A stretch of 64,000 nucleotides of DNA from the NCBI GenBank assembly GCA_019637445.1, contig JAHBVS010000001.1, positions 2,143,586 to 2,207,585 of the forward strand. Reading direction: 5' to 3'. The notes beneath the pieces were generated by a model. The model did not search any database. It was not told the origin of the DNA and saw only the letters and a program-made list of their open reading frames with translations. Numbering within the stretch: position 1 is the first letter of the stretch; each line of letters opens with the position of its first letter. Position numbers and translations under genes: made by a program. Positions 7,090 to 26,037 of the stretch are shown here, in pieces. Source of the DNA: Gemmatimonadaceae bacterium. Its GTDB lineage: Bacteria > Gemmatimonadota > Gemmatimonadetes > Gemmatimonadales > Gemmatimonadaceae.

Positions 7090-9218
7090 TGAGGCCGGCC
7101 GCTCGAGCGCGGCGCGGGTCGGCGCTTGTACTGGTTCTACTGATGACGCTTGCCGTCGCTGCGCTGGCCGTGGCGGCAATCTTCATGTCGTCCAGCGCGG
7201 GGCTGATGTCGCGCTTCTACGATCGGGAACGTGAGTATCGGCTGGCGTCGGAGTCCGCACTGGAGATGGTCCGTGCGCGGCTCACCTTCGACACGACGCT
7301 GGCCATCCCGGACACGGGCATGACACAAGTCGCGGCAGGACTCGTCATCGCGCGCGCGGACGGGAGCCTGCCTCAAGACGTCGCTGTGAACGTCTACGCG
7401 GCTGCAACCGGGGATACCACCGGGCGGATCTTGCCGCACGTCACGCTGATCGCCACTGCGTACGACAATGGCGGGACGCGGCACGTCCGACGTATGGATC
7501 TCCAGCGCGAGAGTTTTTCGCGCTATGCCCTCTTCGTGGACTCGTTCCCGTCGGGAAGCACCTTTGGGCCGGCCACCGTCCTCGGCCGCGTGCACGCGAA
7601 CGATGTCTGGCGCTCGGGGACCACCGCGGCGACGGCGGCCGTCTACAGGGACACGCTGACCGCGACCGGCGGATATAGCGGCAGTGCGACCTACGCCGAT
7701 ACGAGCTCCGCCGGACCGTGGATCCGGTATCCGCGGGACTCGACCTACGCTTGGATGACGACACTTGCCTCGGCTGCGAATCTCTCGTTTGCGCCCATCT
7801 CCGGAAGCGGGTTCGGCTGGGTGCGAGGCTCGAGACTGGAGTTCTTGAACTTCGACGCCAACGGCAACGGGACGGTGGATGCCGGCGAAGGCTTTGCGCG
7901 CGTGTTCGACTTGGCCACGGGAGCGGACACGTCGCGCCTGCGCGTCAGTCTCGATCCAAGCACCTGGTATCTCTTCTACTACGCTCGGCCCTGGAACGAC
8001 CCGATGGTCCAGAACCAGTGCGGTGCGTTCTACTGGCGCGACAGTCGATGGCACTTCTTCCCGGTGGCAACGCACCGGGCCGCCTGGGCGCGAAACGTTA
8101 TTCAGCGGACGGGCTCTCCGAATTTTCCATCGGTCGGCAGTGGCCTCATGAATTCGATGGACAACTATGATCACAACGCGGTCAGCGATATCCTGGAGCA
8201 GCCAACGGCACGCTGCTTTCCGGTGGGAAGTCCGTTCTTGCTCACGAGTGAGCGAATGACGAACGCTATCGGCGTGGTGACGGGGACGGCCGCGGACACC
8301 GTGCCTTGGGGGGTCGTAACGCCGGCGGGGGGCTGGCCCGCCAGCGCCCCGTTCGGATACGGCGGCACCGACACCACGTTTACGCCCCGCTCGCGAACGT
8401 GCTCCTTCTCTACGGGCGGCACCAGCGGCAGGTGCGATAGCGGCACGCATTCGACGCTTGGTGGATGGAGGACGTTCGGGGGCACCGCCGTGTCGGGAAT
8501 CGCTTCGACGATTCGGCAGGCAGCCGAGCTTCCCTACCTCTGGCCCTTGGGTTCTACCTACAATGCGGCCTCTCGCGGCGTAATGCGGGTGACTGCCGGT
8601 CCGCTGTTCGTATCGGGCTCATTCCGCGGCGAACTTACCCTGGTGGCTGATGGCAGCGTCGTGCTCCTTGAGTCGCTCGTGCACGAGCGCTCGCCGAGCG
8701 ACGCCACCCTGCCGCCTTGCTCGAATCGACTGGGCATTGTCGCGGTCGGCGACATCCTAGTCGCCGACAATGCGCTCATGCGTCCACGGCGCATCTACCG
8801 CACGCTGTTCTCAAGCTTGGTTCGCCCGTTCGGGGGAGAGCGCGATGTTCGCATCCACGCGAACCTGATGAGCCTCACAGGTACGGTCGGTGTCGAGAAC
8901 CCGTCGTCAGCCGCCGCCGTGTCATCCGCCGCGTTGTCTTGCCCACACGACGCCTCCGGGAACACGGCTGGTGGATGTTTCCGCCTGGTCGGGGGCGCAG
9001 CGATGCAGCGCTACACGCCGCTCTGGAACGGCAACGACACCGGGATGCGCTACGCAGGCGCCGCGGATCCCTGCCAAACCACGGCGAATCGCCCGCCGTT
9101 CTTCCCGCTGACGAATCGCTATCGCGTGACCCGAGTCATCGAGCTCTCGCCGTCGCAGGCGCGAAACCCCGCGCTCATCCGAAGCCTGCTGCTGCGACTC
9201 AAGGGCGCGACCCTCTAG
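7089..9218 (+). CDS. PilX-like pilus assembly protein, large
   Basis: About 709 residues. The N-terminus has the PilX pattern: basic residues, GSALVLVLLMTLAVAALAVAAIFMS membrane helix, then YDREREYRLASESALEMVRARL (an amphipathic helix rich in Glu/Arg). The remainder is a long, mostly beta, Gly/Thr/Ser-rich exported region with paired cysteines (for example TCSFSTGGTSGRC). It starts at ATG 7089 (tgATG overlap with the preceding stop); a GTG at 7086 is in frame. It is much larger than classical PilX and may combine tip-adhesin functions (inference). Confidence 0.7.
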   Translation: MRPAARARRGSALVLVLLMTLAVAALAVAAIFMSSSAGLMSRFYDREREYRLASESALEMVRARLTFDTTLAIPDTGMTQVAAGLVIARADGSLPQDVAVNVYAAATGDTTGRILPHVTLIATAYDNGGTRHVRRMDLQRESFSRYALFVDSFPSGSTFGPATVLGRVHANDVWRSGTTAATAAVYRDTLTATGGYSGSATYADTSSAGPWIRYPRDSTYAWMTTLASAANLSFAPISGSGFGWVRGSRLEFLNFDANGNGTVDAGEGFARVFDLATGADTSRLRVSLDPSTWYLFYYARPWNDPMVQNQCGAFYWRDSRWHFFPVATHRAAWARNVIQRTGSPNFPSVGSGLMNSMDNYDHNAVSDILEQPTARCFPVGSPFLLTSERMTNAIGVVTGTAADTVPWGVVTPAGGWPASAPFGYGGTDTTFTPRSRTCSFSTGGTSGRCDSGTHSTLGGWRTFGGTAVSGIASTIRQAAELPYLWPLGSTYNAASRGVMRVTAGPLFVSGSFRGELTLVADGSVVLLESLVHERSPSDATLPPCSNRLGIVAVGDILVADNALMRPRRIYRTLFSSLVRPFGGERDVRIHANLMSLTGTVGVENPSSAAAVSSAALSCPHDASGNTAGGCFRLVGGAAMQRYTPLWNGNDTGMRYAGAADPCQTTANRPPFFPLTNRYRVTRVIELSPSQARNPALIRSLLLRLKGATL

Positions 9219-16664: not shown

Positions 16665-17171
16665 GTGGCACTTGAGGTGCGGGTGGAAGAGGTCGCTGAG
16701 GCCGCGCTACCAGGCGTGGATTACCGCTGGGACGCCGACACGGACATCCTTGTCGCGACACTGCGCGCGACCGCTGTGAGCGAGGGATTGAACGGCTCCA
16801 TCGACATTGAGGGCGGCGACGGGGCCTGGCTCACGCTGGAACTGAGCGGCGGGCGATTGTCGGCGGTCGAGGTAGCAGTGTGGCCCGACGTGAAGACGGT
16901 GCCGACGCTGCCGCTGCCCGAGGGGATCGCTGCCGGCCGCATGCACGTGCCCCAGCGTCGATCCGATGCCGGTCTGGCCGCCGTCGAGGTCGAGGCAAGA
17001 ATCCGGGCGGTGGCCGATGCCCCCGAACAGACGATACACTTCCGTGTCGGCCCCACGCGCGCGACGCGCACGGTGCGGGTCGCACGCGACCTGCTGCTCG
17101 AGCTCGATGGCAAGTCGCATATCGCCGGTCTCTGGTTCCTCAACGTCCCGCCGTTCCCCACGCCGCCATGA
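16665..17171 (+). CDS. Hypothetical protein
   Basis: 168 residues, GTG start. Not recognised with confidence. Two beta-rich halves, each with a short pattern reminiscent of DUF2283-like proteins (YRWDADTDILVATL; VRVARDLLLELDGKSHIAGLWFLNVP). No signal peptide or membrane helix. It overlaps the next gene by 4 nt, so the two are co-translated. Confidence 0.55.
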   Translation: MALEVRVEEVAEAALPGVDYRWDADTDILVATLRATAVSEGLNGSIDIEGGDGAWLTLELSGGRLSAVEVAVWPDVKTVPTLPLPEGIAAGRMHVPQRRSDAGLAAVEVEARIRAVADAPEQTIHFRVGPTRATRTVRVARDLLLELDGKSHIAGLWFLNVPPFPTPP

Positions 17172-17450: not shown

Positions 17451-18389
17451 CTAGCGGCCGTCCACGCACCAGTCGAGGCCGACGCGGAAGCGTTCCACCC
17501 AGCGCGCGCCGTCTCGCTTGAGGATGACCAGCGAGGGGATCGCGGCGTAGCGCCAGGACTCCACGAACAGTTCGGCGATGCTGTCGCCGTCGACGTCCGC
17601 GAAGTTCTGTAGGCGCTGGAACTCCACCGTGCGCGCCTCGCCCACCACTGCGTGGCTGTAGCTGGCCACCAGCGTGCCCGCCGAATCCTCGGCGAGCACC
17701 AGGACCATCGCGGTGCTACCGGCGCCGGGACCCAAGTCACCCGCGTTCGGGTCGATGTAGCTGGCGAGCAGCGTGCGGCCCGCGGCGCCGACACCGGTGC
17801 GGATCCAGCGCGCGTGGTAGTCGAGTCCGTTCAGGTCTTCGGGGCCGATATTCGCGGCGGAGGCCACGGCGCTGGCCAAGCTGCGGCCCTGCGCATCCGC
17901 GCCGGCCGGGACGGCGCGATTGTCGACGCGCTGCGCCAGCGGACGCGAGGAAGCCAGTAGCTCAACCGTTTCCTCGAGCGAGACGGTCGGGCGAAGCAGG
18001 CCCAGCGCGTGTGGGACGATGCGCCTGCATCCGGGCACCGAATACAGCGGTGCGCTGTCCGCCGGCCACATCCCGCGGACGATCTCCAGTGTGCCGGCCG
18101 CCAGGCCATTGCGGTACATCGCGTACTGGCGGCCCATCGCAAAGAGGCTGGAATCGACGATGCGCCAGCCGGTCTCGCTGAGGCTCAGCGGCTCGAAGCT
18201 GCCCCCACGGACGACGGCGATGGGCGCGAGCTTCGGCGCCTCGCGGGGTCCGAAGACCTGGAAGAGGACGGTCGAGGAGTCCGTGAGGTCGGTGAACGCC
18301 TCGCGTTCCGCGTCGTCGGGGGCGCGGGTCTGCTTGTCGCAGGCGATGATGAGGGCTAGGATGCTCGCGATGAGCGCGGTGCGCCGCAT
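17451..18389 (-). CDS. Putative lipoprotein, unknown function
   Basis: 312 residues. N-terminal signal with lipobox LIIAC (Cys17), so probably lipid-anchored in the outer or inner membrane. The body is unrecognised; the C-terminus (FADVDGDSIAELFVESWRY) resembles an FG-GAP/VCBS-like calcium loop. Its 5' end overlaps the start region of nurA on the other strand, and its stop is 4 nt from the convergent RAM-domain gene. Confidence 0.7.
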   Translation of the reverse strand: MRRTALIASILALIIACDKQTRAPDDAEREAFTDLTDSSTVLFQVFGPREAPKLAPIAVVRGGSFEPLSLSETGWRIVDSSLFAMGRQYAMYRNGLAAGTLEIVRGMWPADSAPLYSVPGCRRIVPHALGLLRPTVSLEETVELLASSRPLAQRVDNRAVPAGADAQGRSLASAVASAANIGPEDLNGLDYHARWIRTGVGAAGRTLLASYIDPNAGDLGPGAGSTAMVLVLAEDSAGTLVASYSHAVVGEARTVEFQRLQNFADVDGDSIAELFVESWRYAAIPSLVILKRDGARWVERFRVGLDWCVDGR

Positions 18390-19374
18390 CCAGCCAAGCT
18401 ATGACCCGTCGCAGGGGGCGGCAAGCGCGCGCGGTATCCTCGCCGCCCTGCGCGCCAGCGGCGTCGCGGCGGCCGCCCAAGGAAGCCCGCTGGAGGTCCG
18501 GGAGCCCGAGGCGTCCCCCCGGATTGAGACTGCCGACCCGGTGGAAGGGCAGGCCGTGGAAGTCCGGGCGGTCACGGGGCCGCCGGTGGTCGGCATCTCC
18601 GCGTTTCTGGACGGCATCCAGCGCTCGACCGTGCGCGCGCACGTCGGGACGGTCCCCGTCGTCCACGGTGCCGTGGCGGCGGCGGTGCGAGTCCGCGACG
18701 GGCGCCGACTTCGCACCTGGGAGGAGCCGCAGCGCAGCCACGCCTGCTTCCTTCCGGCGGCCCTTCTGGATCCCGCGTGGGTCGCGGGACTGGCGTCGCG
18801 CTGCGAGGTCGTGGATACCTTGGCCGACCTCGAAGCAGGTGCGGAGCCGCCGCGGCATCCGAGCGACCTCGCCGCCCGTGCGCTCACGGCGGTGCAGCGT
18901 CGACGGGAGCGCGCCGAGCTGGCCTTGGCGACCGTGTGGACGGAGCGCGGCTCCGGCACTCTGCTGATTGACGGCGGCATCTCCGGAAGCGAGGCCGTGG
19001 CACGGAGCGAGGCCGTGGTCGGCGTGGTCAAGTCGCATCGCACGCTCTACGCCCCGGGTGAGTCGCTGCCCTTGGTGCTCGGACTCCGCGAAGGCGAGCG
19101 CACGACCGCCGTGGTGTTGTCGTCGCCGCGGCGATTCCCGGTGGCGACCTGGTACCTGCGCTTGCGCACGTCCGCATCGCGCGGGCCGATGTTCGGTCTC
19201 GTGCGCGTCGAGGTGTCGGCGCAGGACCCCATATCTCTCAGCGCGCGCGCCGACCTGGTGTCCCGCTGGCTGCTCGCCGAGCGCAGTCCCGTGTCGCTGC
19301 CAGATGCGCGCTGGGACGTGATGGTCTACGGCATCCGCGAGTGCGAGGAATACCTTTCGGCCATCCTGCCATGA
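18370..19374 (+). CDS. nurA: NurA-family nuclease
   Basis: Ring-shaped 5'-3' nuclease that works with HerA in DNA end resection. About 334 residues. NurA hallmarks: the catalytic-region Asp in GISAFLDGIQRS (D81), second acidic motif GTLLIDGGISG (D201), GVVKSHRTLYAPGE, and the C-terminal WDVMVYGIRECEEYLSAIL. The ATG at 18370 is chosen (18361 also possible); both lie close to the divergent lipoprotein start. Its stop overlaps herA (ATGA). Identification rests on motifs plus the herA-mre11-rad50 context. Confidence 0.8.
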   Translation: MSAVRRIQPSYDPSQGAASARGILAALRASGVAAAAQGSPLEVREPEASPRIETADPVEGQAVEVRAVTGPPVVGISAFLDGIQRSTVRAHVGTVPVVHGAVAAAVRVRDGRRLRTWEEPQRSHACFLPAALLDPAWVAGLASRCEVVDTLADLEAGAEPPRHPSDLAARALTAVQRRRERAELALATVWTERGSGTLLIDGGISGSEAVARSEAVVGVVKSHRTLYAPGESLPLVLGLREGERTTAVVLSSPRRFPVATWYLRLRTSASRGPMFGLVRVEVSAQDPISLSARADLVSRWLLAERSPVSLPDARWDVMVYGIRECEEYLSAILP

Positions 19375-21347
19375 CGACGCCAACATCGCCCCAAGTGCTT
19401 GGCCGTGTGGTGGCCACCGAGCGCCGGCCCAACACGCCGCACGAGTTCCACTTCTGGACCGCGCTGGACGCCCCGGTGGGTATCGGGACCATCGTGCGCG
19501 TGGACTCGGAGCGCCCGATCAATGGCGTGCTGCCGGCCATCTATGGAGTGGTGACCGAGGGCTTCGGCTACACGGACCTGCAGACGCCGCTACACGATGT
19601 GTTGGGTGCGGATGGGCAACCGGGCGCCTCGCAGCTCGCGCCGACGGAGCGCACGGAGATCCGGCTCTATACGGCAGCCGTGCTGCGCCACGTGCCAGAG
19701 GAGCCGCTGCAGCCGGTGCCTATGGGCAGCGTGCACCTGGCCAGCGAGGCCGACGTGCAGGCCGCGCTGCGGATGGACAGCTACGCACAGGGCGAACAGC
19801 GGCGGGCGATTCCGGTGGGGATGTATCGCGCGGGCGGCACCCAGGCCGGCGTGCACCTCGATGCCGACTTCCTGCTCGGGCCCGAGGCGGCGCACCTCAG
19901 CATCTCGGGCGTGTCCGGACTGGCGACGAAGACCAGTGCCGTCGAGTGGTTGCTGGCGAGCATCTTCGCGCACTTCCCGCAGGAGAAGGGCGGGGTGGCG
20001 GCGGTCTGCTTCAATGTGAAGGGCCCCGATCTCTGCTTCCTTGACCAGCCTGCCTCACAGCTGGATGAGACCGATCGCGGGATCTACGAGGCACTGGGGA
20101 TCCCGGCGGAGCCCTTCCGGAACGTGCGCTACTTCGCGCCGTGGACGGCCAAGGGCTACCAGCTGGCGACGCTGCGTTCGAACGAGGCGCTGCAGGGCAA
20201 CGTGCAGCCGCTGACCTGGGGCCTGCGCGAGACACTCGAGTATGCCGAGGTCCTGCTCAACAAGGATGACGTGGACGCCAAGGCCGATGCGCTGATCGAC
20301 TTCATCAAGGAGCGTGTGCTGGACCAGGTCTTCACTGACGACGAGCTCGGCCTGCGCGCCGAAGTGCGCACCTTCGGCGACCTCGAGCGCTGGTTCTCCG
20401 ACCTGTTGCGGGGGATCGAGAACCGGGAGCGGCAGAGCGATGTCTGGCGCACACACCATGTGGCCACCATTCGCAAGGTCCGCAACCGCCTCAGCAACAT
20501 CTCCACGCGCTGCAAGGGGCTGGTCACCGACGACGGCACGGTTTCCGACCTGCCGTTCGGAGAATTCGAGGATCGCGCGGTCTACGTGGTGGATGTCGCC
20601 AACCTCGAGGAGGACGCGCAGGACCTGGTGTTCGCGCGCGTGGTCTCGCAGCTGCGTGAGTCGCTGGAGAAGCGGCAGCTTGGCGTCTCGCAGGTCGTGG
20701 TCTTCGTCGACGAGCTCAACAAGTACGCGCCGAACGACGGCCCCGACACCTACGTGCGCAAGATGCTGCTCGACATCGCGGAGCGAGGACGCTACCTGGG
20801 GATGGTGCTGTTCGGGGCGCAACAGTTCCGCTCGCAGGTGCATCGACGCGTGGTCGGCAACAGCGGGACCGCGCTGTACGGCCGGATGGACCCTGACGAG
20901 TTGGCCACGCCGGGCTACCAGACCCTGGCGCCGGCCACGAAGGCGAGGCTCGCCACGCTGGAGAAGGGCCAGTTGATGGTGCGCCACCCGCACTTCGGCC
21001 AGCCCATCTTTGTGCGCTTCCCGCGACCGGCGGTGCTGGCGGGGCGTGAGGGCGTGGAGCGATTCCCGCCCGCCGAGGACCTGCCGCTGGACGCGGCGTT
21101 GACGCGGGCGTTGCGGCGACTGGACCCAAACATCACCCTGGCAGCCGTGCAAAAGGAGCTCGCGCTGGCCGGCGACAGCGAGGACGAGATCATCCAGGCG
21201 CGGAACCGTACGATCCAAACGCGCCCGGAAAACGTACTGGCCTTCTTCCGTTCGCAGCTGCGCAAGCGTGTGGACCGACAGGCCGTGTCGCGCGCGCCGA
21301 CGCCCGCGTTACGGGCGACCCCGGAAGACGACCCGTATGGCGGCTAG
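19371..21347 (+). CDS. herA: HerA-family hexameric DNA translocase
   Basis: FtsK/HerA-class ATPase that pumps DNA and partners NurA. 658 residues: an N-terminal beta-barrel HAS-type domain (about 1-150), a P-loop region HLSISGVSGLATKTSAVEW (Lys187) with a non-canonical GVSGLATKT form, Walker B VVVFVDELNKYAP (D447/E448), and FGAQQFRSQVHRRVVGNSGT in the sensor region. The C-terminus ends with FFRSQLRKRVD. It overlaps nurA by 4 nt; mre11 begins 90 nt downstream. Confidence 0.85.
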   Translation: MTTPTSPQVLGRVVATERRPNTPHEFHFWTALDAPVGIGTIVRVDSERPINGVLPAIYGVVTEGFGYTDLQTPLHDVLGADGQPGASQLAPTERTEIRLYTAAVLRHVPEEPLQPVPMGSVHLASEADVQAALRMDSYAQGEQRRAIPVGMYRAGGTQAGVHLDADFLLGPEAAHLSISGVSGLATKTSAVEWLLASIFAHFPQEKGGVAAVCFNVKGPDLCFLDQPASQLDETDRGIYEALGIPAEPFRNVRYFAPWTAKGYQLATLRSNEALQGNVQPLTWGLRETLEYAEVLLNKDDVDAKADALIDFIKERVLDQVFTDDELGLRAEVRTFGDLERWFSDLLRGIENRERQSDVWRTHHVATIRKVRNRLSNISTRCKGLVTDDGTVSDLPFGEFEDRAVYVVDVANLEEDAQDLVFARVVSQLRESLEKRQLGVSQVVVFVDELNKYAPNDGPDTYVRKMLLDIAERGRYLGMVLFGAQQFRSQVHRRVVGNSGTALYGRMDPDELATPGYQTLAPATKARLATLEKGQLMVRHPHFGQPIFVRFPRPAVLAGREGVERFPPAEDLPLDAALTRALRRLDPNITLAAVQKELALAGDSEDEIIQARNRTIQTRPENVLAFFRSQLRKRVDRQAVSRAPTPALRATPEDDPYGG

Positions 21348-21437
21348 GGCGAGCCAGTCGTCCGCCGCACGGCCCTCGATTCGATAGCGCGTCATTGCCT
21401 CCCGCGCCGAGGGTGAGGCCGTAGATTCCCCCGGAGA

Positions 21438-22637
21438 GTGCGCCTCATCCACCTCTCCGACCTGCACCTCGGCTTCCGCCAGTTCCAGCGGCAGACCGCG
21501 GCCGGCATCAACCAGCGCGAGGCCGATGTCGCGAAGTCGTTCGCGCGCGCCATCGACCGCATCATCGAGGTGGCGCCGGAGGTCGTGCTCGTCGGTGGTG
21601 ACGTGTTCCACACGGTGCGTCCCACGAACACGTCGATCCTGCACGCCTTCAACCAGTTTGCGCGCTTGGTGCAGGCGCTGCCGCAGACGAAGGTCGTGAT
21701 TGCGGCTGGCAACCACGACATGCCGCGGTCGAGCGAGACGGTGTGCATCCTGCGCCTCTTCGCCGCACCGCTGGGCATCCACGTGGCTGACCGCGAGGCA
21801 AAGCGCTTTGCCTTCGAGGATCTCGACCTCTCGGTGCTTGCCGTGCCGGACCTGCCGCCGGGCACGGTGGACTTCGCACCGGACCCCGAGGCCAAGTACA
21901 ACGTGCTGCTACTGCACGGCGAGGTCACGGGTGCGATTCCACAGGCGGCGAAGGGCGAGAATCCTGATCGCGCTGCGATGCAAATCCCGGTCGAGGATGT
22001 TGCGCGCACCGGCTGGGACTACGTCGCGCTCGGGCACTACCACGTGTACACGCGCATCGCTGAGCACGTGTACTACTCGGGCTCGCTGGACTACACGAGC
22101 ACGAACCCCTGGGGCGAGTTGGCCGCCGAGAAGGCGGCGAAGCTGCCGGGCAAGGGCATGATCGAGCGCGATCTCGCCACGGGAAAGCAGACCTTCCACC
22201 CACTGCCAGTCTCTCGGCCGTTCATCGACCTCCCGGCCGTGGACGGTCGCGGGATGTCCGCGGCCGACCTCGATGCGCAGATCCAGAAGGCTGCGGACCG
22301 CGTTCCGGACGGCATCGACGGCAAGGTGCTGCGCCTGGTAATCACGAACGTCCCGCGGCACATCGCCCGGGAGATCGACCACAAGGCACTGCGCGAGCTG
22401 CAGCGGCGCGCGCTGAACTTCCAGCTCGACACGCGGCGGCCGCAGGTCGTGCGCCAGCGCGGCACGGGCGCGCCCGGCCGTCGCCCGTCGCTGGCCGAGA
22501 CGCTGCGCGAGTCGCTGGCGGCCCGTGCGCTGCCGAACGGCGTCTCGCGCGACGAGTTCCTCGCGCTCGGGCTGCGCTATCTCGATGAAGCCGAGCAGTC
22601 GGAGTTGGCGCGCGCCCTGCCAGGCGGTGACCCGTGA
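21438..22637 (+). CDS. sbcD: Mre11/SbcD-type nuclease
   Basis: Metallophosphoesterase subunit of the Mre11-Rad50 (SbcCD) complex that opens blocked DNA ends. 399 residues. All phosphoesterase motifs are seen: HLSDLHLG, VGGDVFHT, AGNHDMPR, LLHGEV and GHYHVY, then a capping and Rad50-binding region. The GTG start at 21438 is fixed by conservation of RLIHLSDLHLG; the nearest -10-like TAGATT (21422-21427) would give a very short leader. Its stop overlaps the rad50 GTG (GTGA). Confidence 0.92.
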   Translation: MRLIHLSDLHLGFRQFQRQTAAGINQREADVAKSFARAIDRIIEVAPEVVLVGGDVFHTVRPTNTSILHAFNQFARLVQALPQTKVVIAAGNHDMPRSSETVCILRLFAAPLGIHVADREAKRFAFEDLDLSVLAVPDLPPGTVDFAPDPEAKYNVLLLHGEVTGAIPQAAKGENPDRAAMQIPVEDVARTGWDYVALGHYHVYTRIAEHVYYSGSLDYTSTNPWGELAAEKAAKLPGKGMIERDLATGKQTFHPLPVSRPFIDLPAVDGRGMSAADLDAQIQKAADRVPDGIDGKVLRLVITNVPRHIAREIDHKALRELQRRALNFQLDTRRPQVVRQRGTGAPGRRPSLAETLRESLAARALPNGVSRDEFLALGLRYLDEAEQSELARALPGGDP

Positions 22638-25078
22638 GACTCACGCGGCTGCGGCTGACGAACTTTCGGCAGCACACGGACACGGACCTCGAGTTCTACT
22701 CGGGACTCACAGGGATCATCGGCCCCAATGGGGCGGGCAAGTCGACGATCCTCGAGGCCATCGCCTGGGCGCTGTACGGCGGCGGCACGGTGCGCGGCGG
22801 CAACGACTCAATCCGTTTCCAGCGCGCGGCGCCGCGTTCGCCCGTGCGCGTGGAGCTGGAGTTCGAGCTGGCCGGACATCGCTACCGCGTGGTCCGCGGG
22901 CTGACCAGCGCGGAGCTCTATCTCGATGGCGGCGAGGAACCGGTCGCGGTGTCGGTGACTGCCGTTGCCGAGATGCTGCAGCGCCGCATTGGGATGACGA
23001 AGACGGAGTTCTTCAACACCTACTTCACGGGCCAGAAGGAACTGGCCGTGATGCAGGCGCTGACGTCGGGTGAGCGCGCGCAGTTTCTCTCGCGTGTGCT
23101 GGGCTACGAGAAGCTGCGCGTGGCGCAGGACCTCTGCGCGGCGCGGCGCAAGGAGCTCACCAGCGAGATCGCCGGCCTGCGCAGCGGGATGCCCGAGCGT
23201 GACGCCGTGCTCGGCGCGCTCGCCAGCGCACAGGCCACGCTGCGCGAGGCGACGACGCGCGTCGTGGATGCCGAGCGGCTGGAAACCGAGACGGGAGAGG
23301 CGTTGGCGGCAATCGCGCCGCGCTGGCTCGCGGCGCAGACCGGCCGCGAGGAGCGGGAGCGTGTCGAGCGCGAACTCGCGGGCATCGATGGCGAGGACGG
23401 TGCGCTCGCCCGTACCGAGCACGGCGTCGGCGATGAACTGAAGGCCATTGCGACCGCGCGCGAGCAATTGGCACCGATGCAGCCGGAGGTCGAGCGCCTT
23501 GCGGCGGTGACCGAGGCACTCGAGCGGCAGCGCACGCTGCAGGCGGGCGAGGGGCGGCGTCGCGCGCTGCTGACCTCGCGCACAAACGTCTCCACCGATG
23601 CCGCGGCCCTCGAGACCGAAGCGGAGCGCCTGCGCCTCACGGTGGCCGAGGAGCCGAATGTCGTCATGCAACTCACCCAGCGGCGCGAAGCGCTGGAAGC
23701 GGCGCAGTCCAAGCTGGAGTTGCGGCGCACGGAGTGGGTGCGCGAGCGCGAGAGCGTCGAGGGTCGGCTGCGCACGCTGCGCGCGACGTACCAGGACCTG
23801 CGCGACCAGCGCGAGACGCTGCTCAACGCCGGTGAGGCGGGGAACTGTCCGACTTGCACGCGCCCGCTGGGGGAACAGTTCCGCGCGGTGCTCGATGTGC
23901 TGGAGCGCCAGATGGAGACTACCGAGGCTGACGGGTCGTATTTCAAGACGCGGCGGGAGCAGCTGGAGGCGATGCCGGCGGACATCGCGCATCTCGATGA
24001 GCTGCGGCGGACGCTGCAGGGCGAGCTGAGCACACTCGAGCGGCGCGCGACCGAACTCAAGGGCGACATCAAGCGTTTGGCGACCGTCGAGCAGGAGCTC
24101 GCCAACAAGCGCGCGCGGCTGGCAACGATCGCCGGCGAGATCGCCGCAATACCGGAAGGCTACGACGAAGCGGAGCACAAGGCCCTCGAAGCCGAGCGCG
24201 CGCGCCTGGGTGAGGCCGCGCAGGTGGCGAGTCGTCTGCAGCATCAGATTGAGCGCGAATCCGCACTGAAAGCGGAGCAGTCGCAGATCCGCGAACAGCG
24301 CTCGGCGCTGGCCGAGCGGCGCGCCGGCGCGGCCGCGCGGCTCAAGGGCCTGAGCGTACCCGATGGCGACTACACCGAGCTGCGCCGATTGCACGAGGGT
24401 GTATCGGCGGCACATGCCGAGGCCGGTCAGAAGGCGGCGTCTGCGCGCGCCGGCCGCGACCTGGCGCAGGCCGCGGTGCAGCGTGCCGAGCAGGAGCGCG
24501 CGGAGTTCGACTCGCTGTCGGCCAAGGTCGCCGCGCTCGACGAGCAGCGACGGCTGCACGAGGAGCTGCACCGTGCCTACTCCGAGCTGCGCAACGACCT
24601 GAACTTCCAGCTGCGCCCCGACATCTCGGAGATCGCCAGCGAGTTGCTGCGTACGCTGACGGATGCGCGGTACAGCGAGTTGGAGCTGGACGACAAGTAT
24701 CGCCTCGTGGTGCTCGAGGATGGCGTGCCGAAGCCGGTCATTTCGGGCGGCGAGGAGGACGTCGCGAACCTGGTGCTGCGACTGGCCATCTCGCAGATGA
24801 TCGCCGAGCGCGCTGGGCAGTCGTTCTCGCTGCTGGTGCTCGACGAGGTGTTCGGTTCGCTCGATGACGTGCGGCGGGCGAACGTGGTGTCGCTGCTGCG
24901 TGGCCTGCAGGACCGCTTCGACCAGGTCATCGTCATCACGCACATCGAAGGCGTCCGCGACGGGCTTGACCGCGTGATCGAGATCGGTGTGGACCCGGCG
25001 ACCGGGGCGGCGGTGGTCACCAGTCCTGATCCCGTGGAGGCCGAAATGCATCTCCTTGGGTCGGAGGCTGTCGCGTGA
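22634..25078 (+). CDS. sbcC: Rad50/SbcC-type SMC-like ATPase
   Basis: ATPase subunit of Mre11-Rad50, 814 residues. Walker A GPNGAGKSTILEAIAW near residue 35, long coiled coils on both sides of a zinc hook NCPTCTRPLG (Cys405, Cys408), ABC signature ISGGEEDVANLVLRLA, and Walker B FSLLVLDEVFGSLDD near the C-terminus. The length is nearer archaeal Rad50 than the over-1000-residue E. coli SbcC. GTG start overlaps mre11, and its own stop overlaps the GNAT gene (GTGA). Confidence 0.93.
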   Translation: MRLTRLRLTNFRQHTDTDLEFYSGLTGIIGPNGAGKSTILEAIAWALYGGGTVRGGNDSIRFQRAAPRSPVRVELEFELAGHRYRVVRGLTSAELYLDGGEEPVAVSVTAVAEMLQRRIGMTKTEFFNTYFTGQKELAVMQALTSGERAQFLSRVLGYEKLRVAQDLCAARRKELTSEIAGLRSGMPERDAVLGALASAQATLREATTRVVDAERLETETGEALAAIAPRWLAAQTGREERERVERELAGIDGEDGALARTEHGVGDELKAIATAREQLAPMQPEVERLAAVTEALERQRTLQAGEGRRRALLTSRTNVSTDAAALETEAERLRLTVAEEPNVVMQLTQRREALEAAQSKLELRRTEWVRERESVEGRLRTLRATYQDLRDQRETLLNAGEAGNCPTCTRPLGEQFRAVLDVLERQMETTEADGSYFKTRREQLEAMPADIAHLDELRRTLQGELSTLERRATELKGDIKRLATVEQELANKRARLATIAGEIAAIPEGYDEAEHKALEAERARLGEAAQVASRLQHQIERESALKAEQSQIREQRSALAERRAGAAARLKGLSVPDGDYTELRRLHEGVSAAHAEAGQKAASARAGRDLAQAAVQRAEQERAEFDSLSAKVAALDEQRRLHEELHRAYSELRNDLNFQLRPDISEIASELLRTLTDARYSELELDDKYRLVVLEDGVPKPVISGGEEDVANLVLRLAISQMIAERAGQSFSLLVLDEVFGSLDDVRRANVVSLLRGLQDRFDQVIVITHIEGVRDGLDRVIEIGVDPATGAAVVTSPDPVEAEMHLLGSEAVA

Positions 25079-26037
25079 CGGAGCCGGCGACAAGAATCGG
25101 CGGTCCGTTCCCGATCAAGGTCGAGGACATCGCGCCGTTGAACGAGTTGTTTAGCGAGGCGTTCAGTGAACGCTATCGTCGGGACGGGATGTCGGGGGTT
25201 CGGGTTCCGCCGCTAAATCCGGCCATCTGGCGCTTCGCCTTGGAGAGCGCCGGCGAGGGTGCGATGCTCTGGCGCGATGGCGCCGGCGCCTTGGCGGCGT
25301 TCAACCTCGCCCACGCCTCGGGCCGCGAGGGCTGGATGGGCCCGCTGGCGGTGCGCGACGACCTGCAGGGCCGCGGACTGGGGGCGACCATCGTGCGCGC
25401 GGGCATCGAGCATCTGCGGCGCGTGGGCTGCACGACGATAGGGCTCGAGACGATGCCCCGGACGATGGACAACATCGGATTCTACGCCGGACTGGGATTC
25501 CTGCCGGCGCCGCTGACCATCACCGTGACGATGGACGGGACAGGTGGCGCAGCGCCCCCGGAACTGCTGGGTCGATTGGGCGCCGGCGACCGCGAGCGTT
25601 CCATGAACGAGATGCGCGCGCTCACCGAGCGCGCACGTCCCGGCGCGGACTACACGCGCGAGGTTGCGGTCAGCCTGCACCACGCCATCGGCGACGTGGT
25701 CCTGCATCGCGACGCCGACAGGCGACTGCGCGGCTTCGCGCTGTACCACGACGTGCCGTTGGTGGAAGGTCGAAGCCGTGAGGAGCTGCGTGTGCTCAAG
25801 CTCGTCGCCGCATCGCCGGACGACCTGATGGCCTTGGTGGATCTCGTGCGGGTGCAGGCGCGCCGCAGCGGGGCGCTGCGTGCGGCGTTTCGCGTGCAGG
25901 GGGAGTTCTCGTCCGCATTTCGCGTGCTCGTCGCGCACGGGGCGCGGGTGCGCTGGACGGACCTTCGGATGACGCTTACCGGGGCGGGCGAGGCCAGCGG
26001 TGGCGAGGGTATCGCGCTGTCGAACTGGGAGATCTGA
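25075..26037 (+). CDS. GNAT-family N-acetyltransferase
   Basis: 320 residues, GTG start overlapping rad50 by 4 nt. The N-terminal half is a GNAT fold with the acetyl-CoA loop VRDDLQGRGLGATIV and GFYAGLGF; the C-terminal half (about 180-320) looks like a second, degenerate GNAT-like domain. Substrate unknown. The tight coupling to the nurA-herA-mre11-rad50 operon is notable but no DNA-repair role can be read from the sequence. Confidence 0.78.
   Translation: MTEPATRIGGPFPIKVEDIAPLNELFSEAFSERYRRDGMSGVRVPPLNPAIWRFALESAGEGAMLWRDGAGALAAFNLAHASGREGWMGPLAVRDDLQGRGLGATIVRAGIEHLRRVGCTTIGLETMPRTMDNIGFYAGLGFLPAPLTITVTMDGTGGAAPPELLGRLGAGDRERSMNEMRALTERARPGADYTREVAVSLHHAIGDVVLHRDADRRLRGFALYHDVPLVEGRSREELRVLKLVAASPDDLMALVDLVRVQARRSGALRAAFRVQGEFSSAFRVLVAHGARVRWTDLRMTLTGAGEASGGEGIALSNWEI

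Follow-up and report, generated by a model that had tools for sequence, protein, structure and literature searches.

The four-gene run at positions 18370–25078 raises the question of whether a bacterium resects its DNA double-strand ends with NurA, HerA, Mre11 and Rad50, a gene set that is shared with thermophilic archaea, or whether these genes serve another function. An earlier note had described the run as a complete archaeal-type operon and had read it as serving either archaeal-style end resection or a related defence function. The window, which is the whole stretch of DNA that was analysed (64,000 nucleotides), corresponds to positions 2143586–2207585 of a source genome of 3.35 Mb.

Gene arrangement and protein identities

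As the earlier note had described, there are four consecutive genes for a nuclease, a translocase, Mre11 and a short Rad50 with a zinc hook. They lie on the plus strand, and their catalytic motifs are intact. nurA (18370–19374) encodes a 334-residue RNase H-fold nuclease of the bacterial NurA family, herA (19371–21347) encodes a 658-residue HAS-barrel/RecA-like translocase of the Deinococcus type, mre11 (sbcD-like; 21438–22637) encodes a 399-residue metallophosphoesterase nuclease and rad50 (22634–25078) encodes a compact 814-residue SMC-like ATPase with a CPTC zinc hook; the latter two genes start with GTG. nurA and herA overlap by 4 nt (ATGA), as do mre11 and rad50 (GTGA), and the spacing from herA to mre11 is 90 nt, so that the description of all three junctions as 4 nt or short gaps was nearly right. 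rad50 also shares 4 nt (25075–25078) with the next gene in the same run, which encodes a GNAT-family acetyltransferase (25075–26037, plus strand; GNAT Pfam E 1e-10) and lies 3' of rad50 across families f1 and f2 and in almost every long locus from Gemmatimonadales; f1, f2 and similar family designations are tool labels, and we infer f1 to be Gemmatimonadaceae. The four genes form a conserved operon-like arrangement. On the other side, a putative lipoprotein gene (17451–18389, minus strand) is divergent from nurA and the 5' ends of the two genes overlap by 20 nt (18370–18389), which leaves almost no space for separate promoters outside the genes; the same overlap is repeated in two further loci (L039 and L040).

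The HerA protein of the window has no Pfam match. A profile built from 23 HerA proteins matched a single protein among the solved structures, HerA from D. radiodurans (7f6d_B, E 2.3e-58); archaeal HerA structures gave no match at E ≤ 1, and the HerA_Thermprot model gave 18 bits on the window HerA against a cut-off of 800. The HAS-barrel model PF09378 is matched by five of the 23 family members (best E 1e-5) and is below threshold in the window HerA, the N-terminal half of which aligns with that of drHerA and places it among the HAS-barrel proteins. The Walker A sequence is GVSGLATKTS and the Walker B region is VFVDELNKYAP. Lys187 and Thr188 (Walker A), Asp220 (ASCE) and Asp447 and Glu448 (Walker B) are invariant in the 23 sequences and align with Lys175/Thr176, Asp220 and Asp487/Glu488 of drHerA, which have the same respective roles (PMC9960219). 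With a mean column identity of 72%, HerA is under strong constraint. The closest sequences are from Gemmatimonas sp. PR.013 (84% identity) and from a MAG named Gemmatimonas phototrophica (81%), and the window is assigned to Gemmatimonas in the wide sense.

Taken alone, the window NurA has no Pfam or NCBIfam match, and the Pfam NurA model PF09376 finds nothing in the window genome, although it gives matches in seven controls. Among the solved structures, the NurA profile matched NurA from Thermotoga (1zup, E 3e-4) and Deinococcus (7f6d_H, E 3e-4), and no archaeal NurA chain at E 10. The AlphaFold model (pLDDT 91) has the RNase H-like NurA fold and was ranked by VIA-align closest to 1zup (Z 19.7) and drNurA (7f6d_G, Z 19.2), followed by Sulfolobus NurA (Z 14.4), TdpB (Z 13.1) and other archaeal NurAs (about 12), with values of about 9 or less outside the NurA/TdpB group. 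The window NurA carries Asp81, Glu183, Asp201 and Lys221; in the family alignment Asp201 is kept in 95 of 95 sequences, Lys221 in 94 and Asp81 in 87. The loss of catalytic Asp residues about which the earlier note had cautioned is therefore not seen here, as both Asp81 and Asp201 are kept. Lys221 corresponds to the catalytic Lys201 of drNurA, and Asp81 aligns with the first Asp of 1zup, an alignment through which it would correspond to Asp53 of drNurA.

Mre11 matches Metallophos (E 1e-9), the SbcD model TIGR00619 (E 2e-21) and archaeal Mre11 (E 5e-19), and its metal-binding motifs HLSDLHLG, GGDVFH, GNHD and LGHYH are intact. Rad50 scores 207 bits with the archaeal Rad50 model PRK03918 versus 98 bits with the SbcC model TIGR00618; its motifs GPNGAGKS, FTGQ (Q-loop), ISGGE and VLDEVFGSLD are likewise intact, and the CPTC hook occupies residues 405–408. 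The two proteins belong to the same Mre11/SbcD and Rad50/SbcC families as bacterial SbcCD, but this Rad50 is compact, prefers the archaeal model and is linked to nurA–herA. The closest solved structures of both Rad50 and Mre11 are archaeal, and by sequence comparison these two proteins are nearest to their archaeal counterparts, unlike HerA and NurA. Since the profile matches and the NurA fold ranking favour bacterial members, the NurA–HerA pair is of the bacterial (Deinococcus/Thermotoga) type. The archaeal label of the earlier note thus holds for Rad50 and Mre11 and fails for HerA and NurA. Compared with the archaeal cluster of Sulfolobus and Pyrococcus (PMC2288612), the four families are similarly adjacent on one strand, but HerA and NurA are not of the archaeal sequence type.

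The resemblance to the D. radiodurans NurA–HerA complex (7F6D and 7WRW; PMC9960219) extends to the HerA motifs SG.ATKTS (an unusual Walker A), FNVKG.DL..LD, DELNKYAP and ERGR.LG, as well as to a genome without RecBCD or AddAB. The differences are that the pair here lies in one gene run with mre11–rad50, and that Arg495 and Arg552 of drHerA, basic residues that are required for translocation (PMC9960219), are replaced by the nonbasic Asn455 and Thr513.

Conservation and descent of the cluster

The regions retrieved from f1 and f2 contain the four genes as a cluster in almost every genome examined, and the upstream aminotransferase gene and the downstream GNAT gene are kept in most of them. Among 80 HerA loci in named genomes, nurA lies just upstream in 70, and all four genes are present in 54, many of the remaining loci ending at a contig boundary; with 54 of 80 loci complete, the grouping is not due to chance. 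The four-gene cluster is also present in Armatimonadota, at loci L145 and L150. f1 and f2 each form one supported group in the HerA, Mre11 and Rad50 trees, which agree with vertical descent, and the flanking genes are metabolic and conserved across the order. This pattern is that of an old, vertically inherited chromosomal operon. Because it is kept across two families and in Armatimonadota, and because the trees fit descent, the cluster looks like a housekeeping operon and not a defence island. No report of such a cluster in Gemmatimonadota or Armatimonadota was found in the open-licence literature; the operon arrangement is new and is composed of known bacterial parts, being archaeal only in its gene set and in Rad50 and Mre11.

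Several variants of the locus were also observed. The genes are retained but dispersed in f9, with nurA, herA and rad50 far apart in one genome (G183). At the herA–mre11 junction of three loci from different lineages (L046, L058 and L064), unrelated and differing genes, one of them encoding an AMP-binding enzyme, are inserted and widen the gap to 0.8–1.7 kb. In the AddAB-carrying families f7 and f5 there is another, more distant NurA–HerA(–Mre11–Rad50) cluster (L071:3335–10506 and L074) that is closer to Pfam NurA and includes a larger Rad50 of 968 residues. G027 (1.8 Mb; C6:25623–27555) and G170 (2.1 Mb; C6:52712–54790), both small genomes from the genus of the window, are without nurA and herA and give rad50 matches in pieces only, with two TGA within one G027 piece; this fragmentation possibly represents decay.

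Other end-processing genes and the loss of NurA

The window genome, which is listed as 100% complete, was examined by targeted searches for the RecBCD and AddAB enzymes, a check that the earlier note had proposed. The PDDEXK_1 nuclease domain of RecB/AddAB was not detected in it, while control matches were obtained in 12 of 14 genomes. Its two UvrD-family helicases (763 and 719 residues) are both PcrA-like, and no UvrD helicase of RecB/AddA size was found. By this test the genome has no RecBCD, AddAB or AdnAB; Ku was not found in it either. RecJ, RecQ and RecR are present. RecJ–RecQ–RecFOR is the other known bacterial resection route, and the statement that bacteria normally use RecBCD or AddAB therefore needs tempering. 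The match of RecJ to drRecJ stops at residue 525 of 705 in the latter, near the end of the RecJ of the window genome, which therefore is without the C-terminal domain. Deinococcus-style cross-talk between HerA and RecJ through this domain, to which HerA binds in Deinococcus (PMC4663267), was accordingly rejected for this genome.

Among 200 genomes of the phylum, 106 have this type of HerA, of which 99 have both HerA and NurA and seven, all from f2, have HerA without detectable NurA; no genome has NurA only. With a strong PDDEXK_1 match taken as a proxy for AddAB, such matches were found in 15 of the 106 operon carriers versus 76 of the 94 non-carriers. The association is absent within f1 (p = 1) and gives p = 0.09 when the five families are pooled, and AddAB-like pairs also occur in two carriers from Armatimonadota, so that exclusion of AddAB as a general law was rejected and the difference lies at the level of clades: sister families of the phylum carry AddAB instead, and the swap is between clades and not inside families. 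Several f1 genomes that have lost nurA–herA show weak PDDEXK_1 matches at most. As both genes were lost without a clear gain of AddAB, the pair is dispensable in several relatives; Rad50 of this type usually stays after the loss.

In other genomes NurA or its catalytic residue has been lost and HerA has been kept. Asp81 is replaced by Asn, Ala or Gly in seven f2-type Gemmatimonadales NurAs (L062, L063, L069, L121, L124, L132 and L158), in which Asp201, Lys221 and HerA remain intact, and on the HerA tree this loss has at least two separate origins. In a further four loci (L139, L143, L146 and L147) herA–mre11–rad50 is kept and nurA is gone; in the first two (7500–8001 in each) the space of nurA holds what appears by eye to be a homologue of a neighbouring gene of the window (16665–17171). 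A profile search of 22 genomes for a diverged NurA was empty, in a set that held no positive control. As nurA or Asp81 has been lost where herA is kept, HerA may have a role apart from NurA.

Probable role and alternatives

The operon is probably a chromosomal housekeeping operon for the resection of DNA double-strand ends, and its most likely role is end resection for homologous recombination, an activity predicted from the observed sequence, fold and context. The resection reading of the earlier note is thus a probable one, supported by the protein identities and the operon-like arrangement, without the archaeal style. Mre11–Rad50 would act first, recognizing the end and opening or clearing the break; a HerA hexamer would then thread the duplex and pump the DNA into a NurA dimer, which would cut the 5' strand, and the resulting 3' tail would receive RecA through RecFOR, with RecJ–RecQ probably working in parallel. 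The intact motifs, the conserved cluster, the lack of detected RecBCD/AddAB or Ku, the presence of RecJ, RecQ and RecR and the finding that NurA never occurs without HerA support this role; the nonbasic equivalents of Arg495 and Arg552, the repeated loss of the pair and the losses of nurA or Asp81 count against it.

The in vivo role of bacterial-type NurA–HerA is itself disputed, since deletion of nurA–herA in D. radiodurans leads to higher resistance to UV and mitomycin (PMC9960219). It is conceivable, though rather unlikely, that NurA–HerA acts as a modulator, either minor or antagonistic, as has been reported for Deinococcus, that RecJ–RecQ–RecFOR carries out resection and that Mre11–Rad50 acts separately in an SbcCD-like manner on hairpins or blocked ends. 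The more resistant Deinococcus deletion fits such a modulator, as does the report that Deinococcus HerA stimulates RecJ while NurA competes (PMC4663267); so do the presence of RecJ, RecQ and RecR here, the loss of nurA–herA where rad50 stays and the loss of nurA or Asp81 where herA stays. However, RecJ is here without the domain that binds HerA, HerA is strongly constrained and the linkage of nurA–herA to mre11–rad50 suggests joint work.

A role in defence against phages or plasmids, as a system related to TdpAB or to the HerA–nuclease systems, is improbable. TdpAB, a phosphorothioate-dependent defence system, likewise combines a HerA-like ATPase with a NurA-like nuclease, TdpB, which the NurA model matches, and HerA–nuclease pairs occur in known defence systems (PMC11291478). 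The TdpB match (Z 13) is nevertheless weaker than those to true bacterial NurAs (Z 19–20), PADLOC gave a 17-bit HerA match only and none for NurA, and the context is mre11–rad50 with metabolic housekeeping neighbours kept across the order, unlike a mobile island. Neither the defence-model scores nor the neighbouring genes place the cluster in TdpAB or other HerA defence systems; with conserved chromosomal neighbours, trees that fit descent and no specific defence-system match, the defence function suggested by the earlier note is not upheld. Acquisition of the whole archaeal operon by horizontal transfer is the least probable explanation, as the shared gene set (PMC2288612) and the archaeal nearest structures of Rad50 and Mre11 are outweighed by the exclusively bacterial profile matches of HerA and NurA among solved structures, by the NurA fold ranking and by HerA relatives at about 49–57% identity in Armatimonadota and Cyanobacteria/Melainabacteria.

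End resection by the operon thus remains the preferred reading. As a tentative extension, which is possible but short of probable, NurA–HerA–Mre11–Rad50 might form one resection machine that replaces RecBCD/AddAB in chromosomal break repair in most Gemmatimonadales, with HerA in some lineages freed from NurA, through deletion or the loss of Asp81, and driving a different nuclease.

In conclusion, bacterial NurA–HerA has been studied mainly in Deinococcus–Thermus, where its deletion is nonsensitizing and its role is disputed, and this study describes linkage of the pair to mre11–rad50 in a large bacterial order that has cultured representatives and most members of which are without AddAB. Whether a Mre11–Rad50–HerA–NurA pathway can carry break repair in bacteria is thereby open to a direct genetic test, and the natural losses of nurA, or of the catalytic Asp of its product, in lineages that retain herA provide a built-in test of the need of HerA for NurA.
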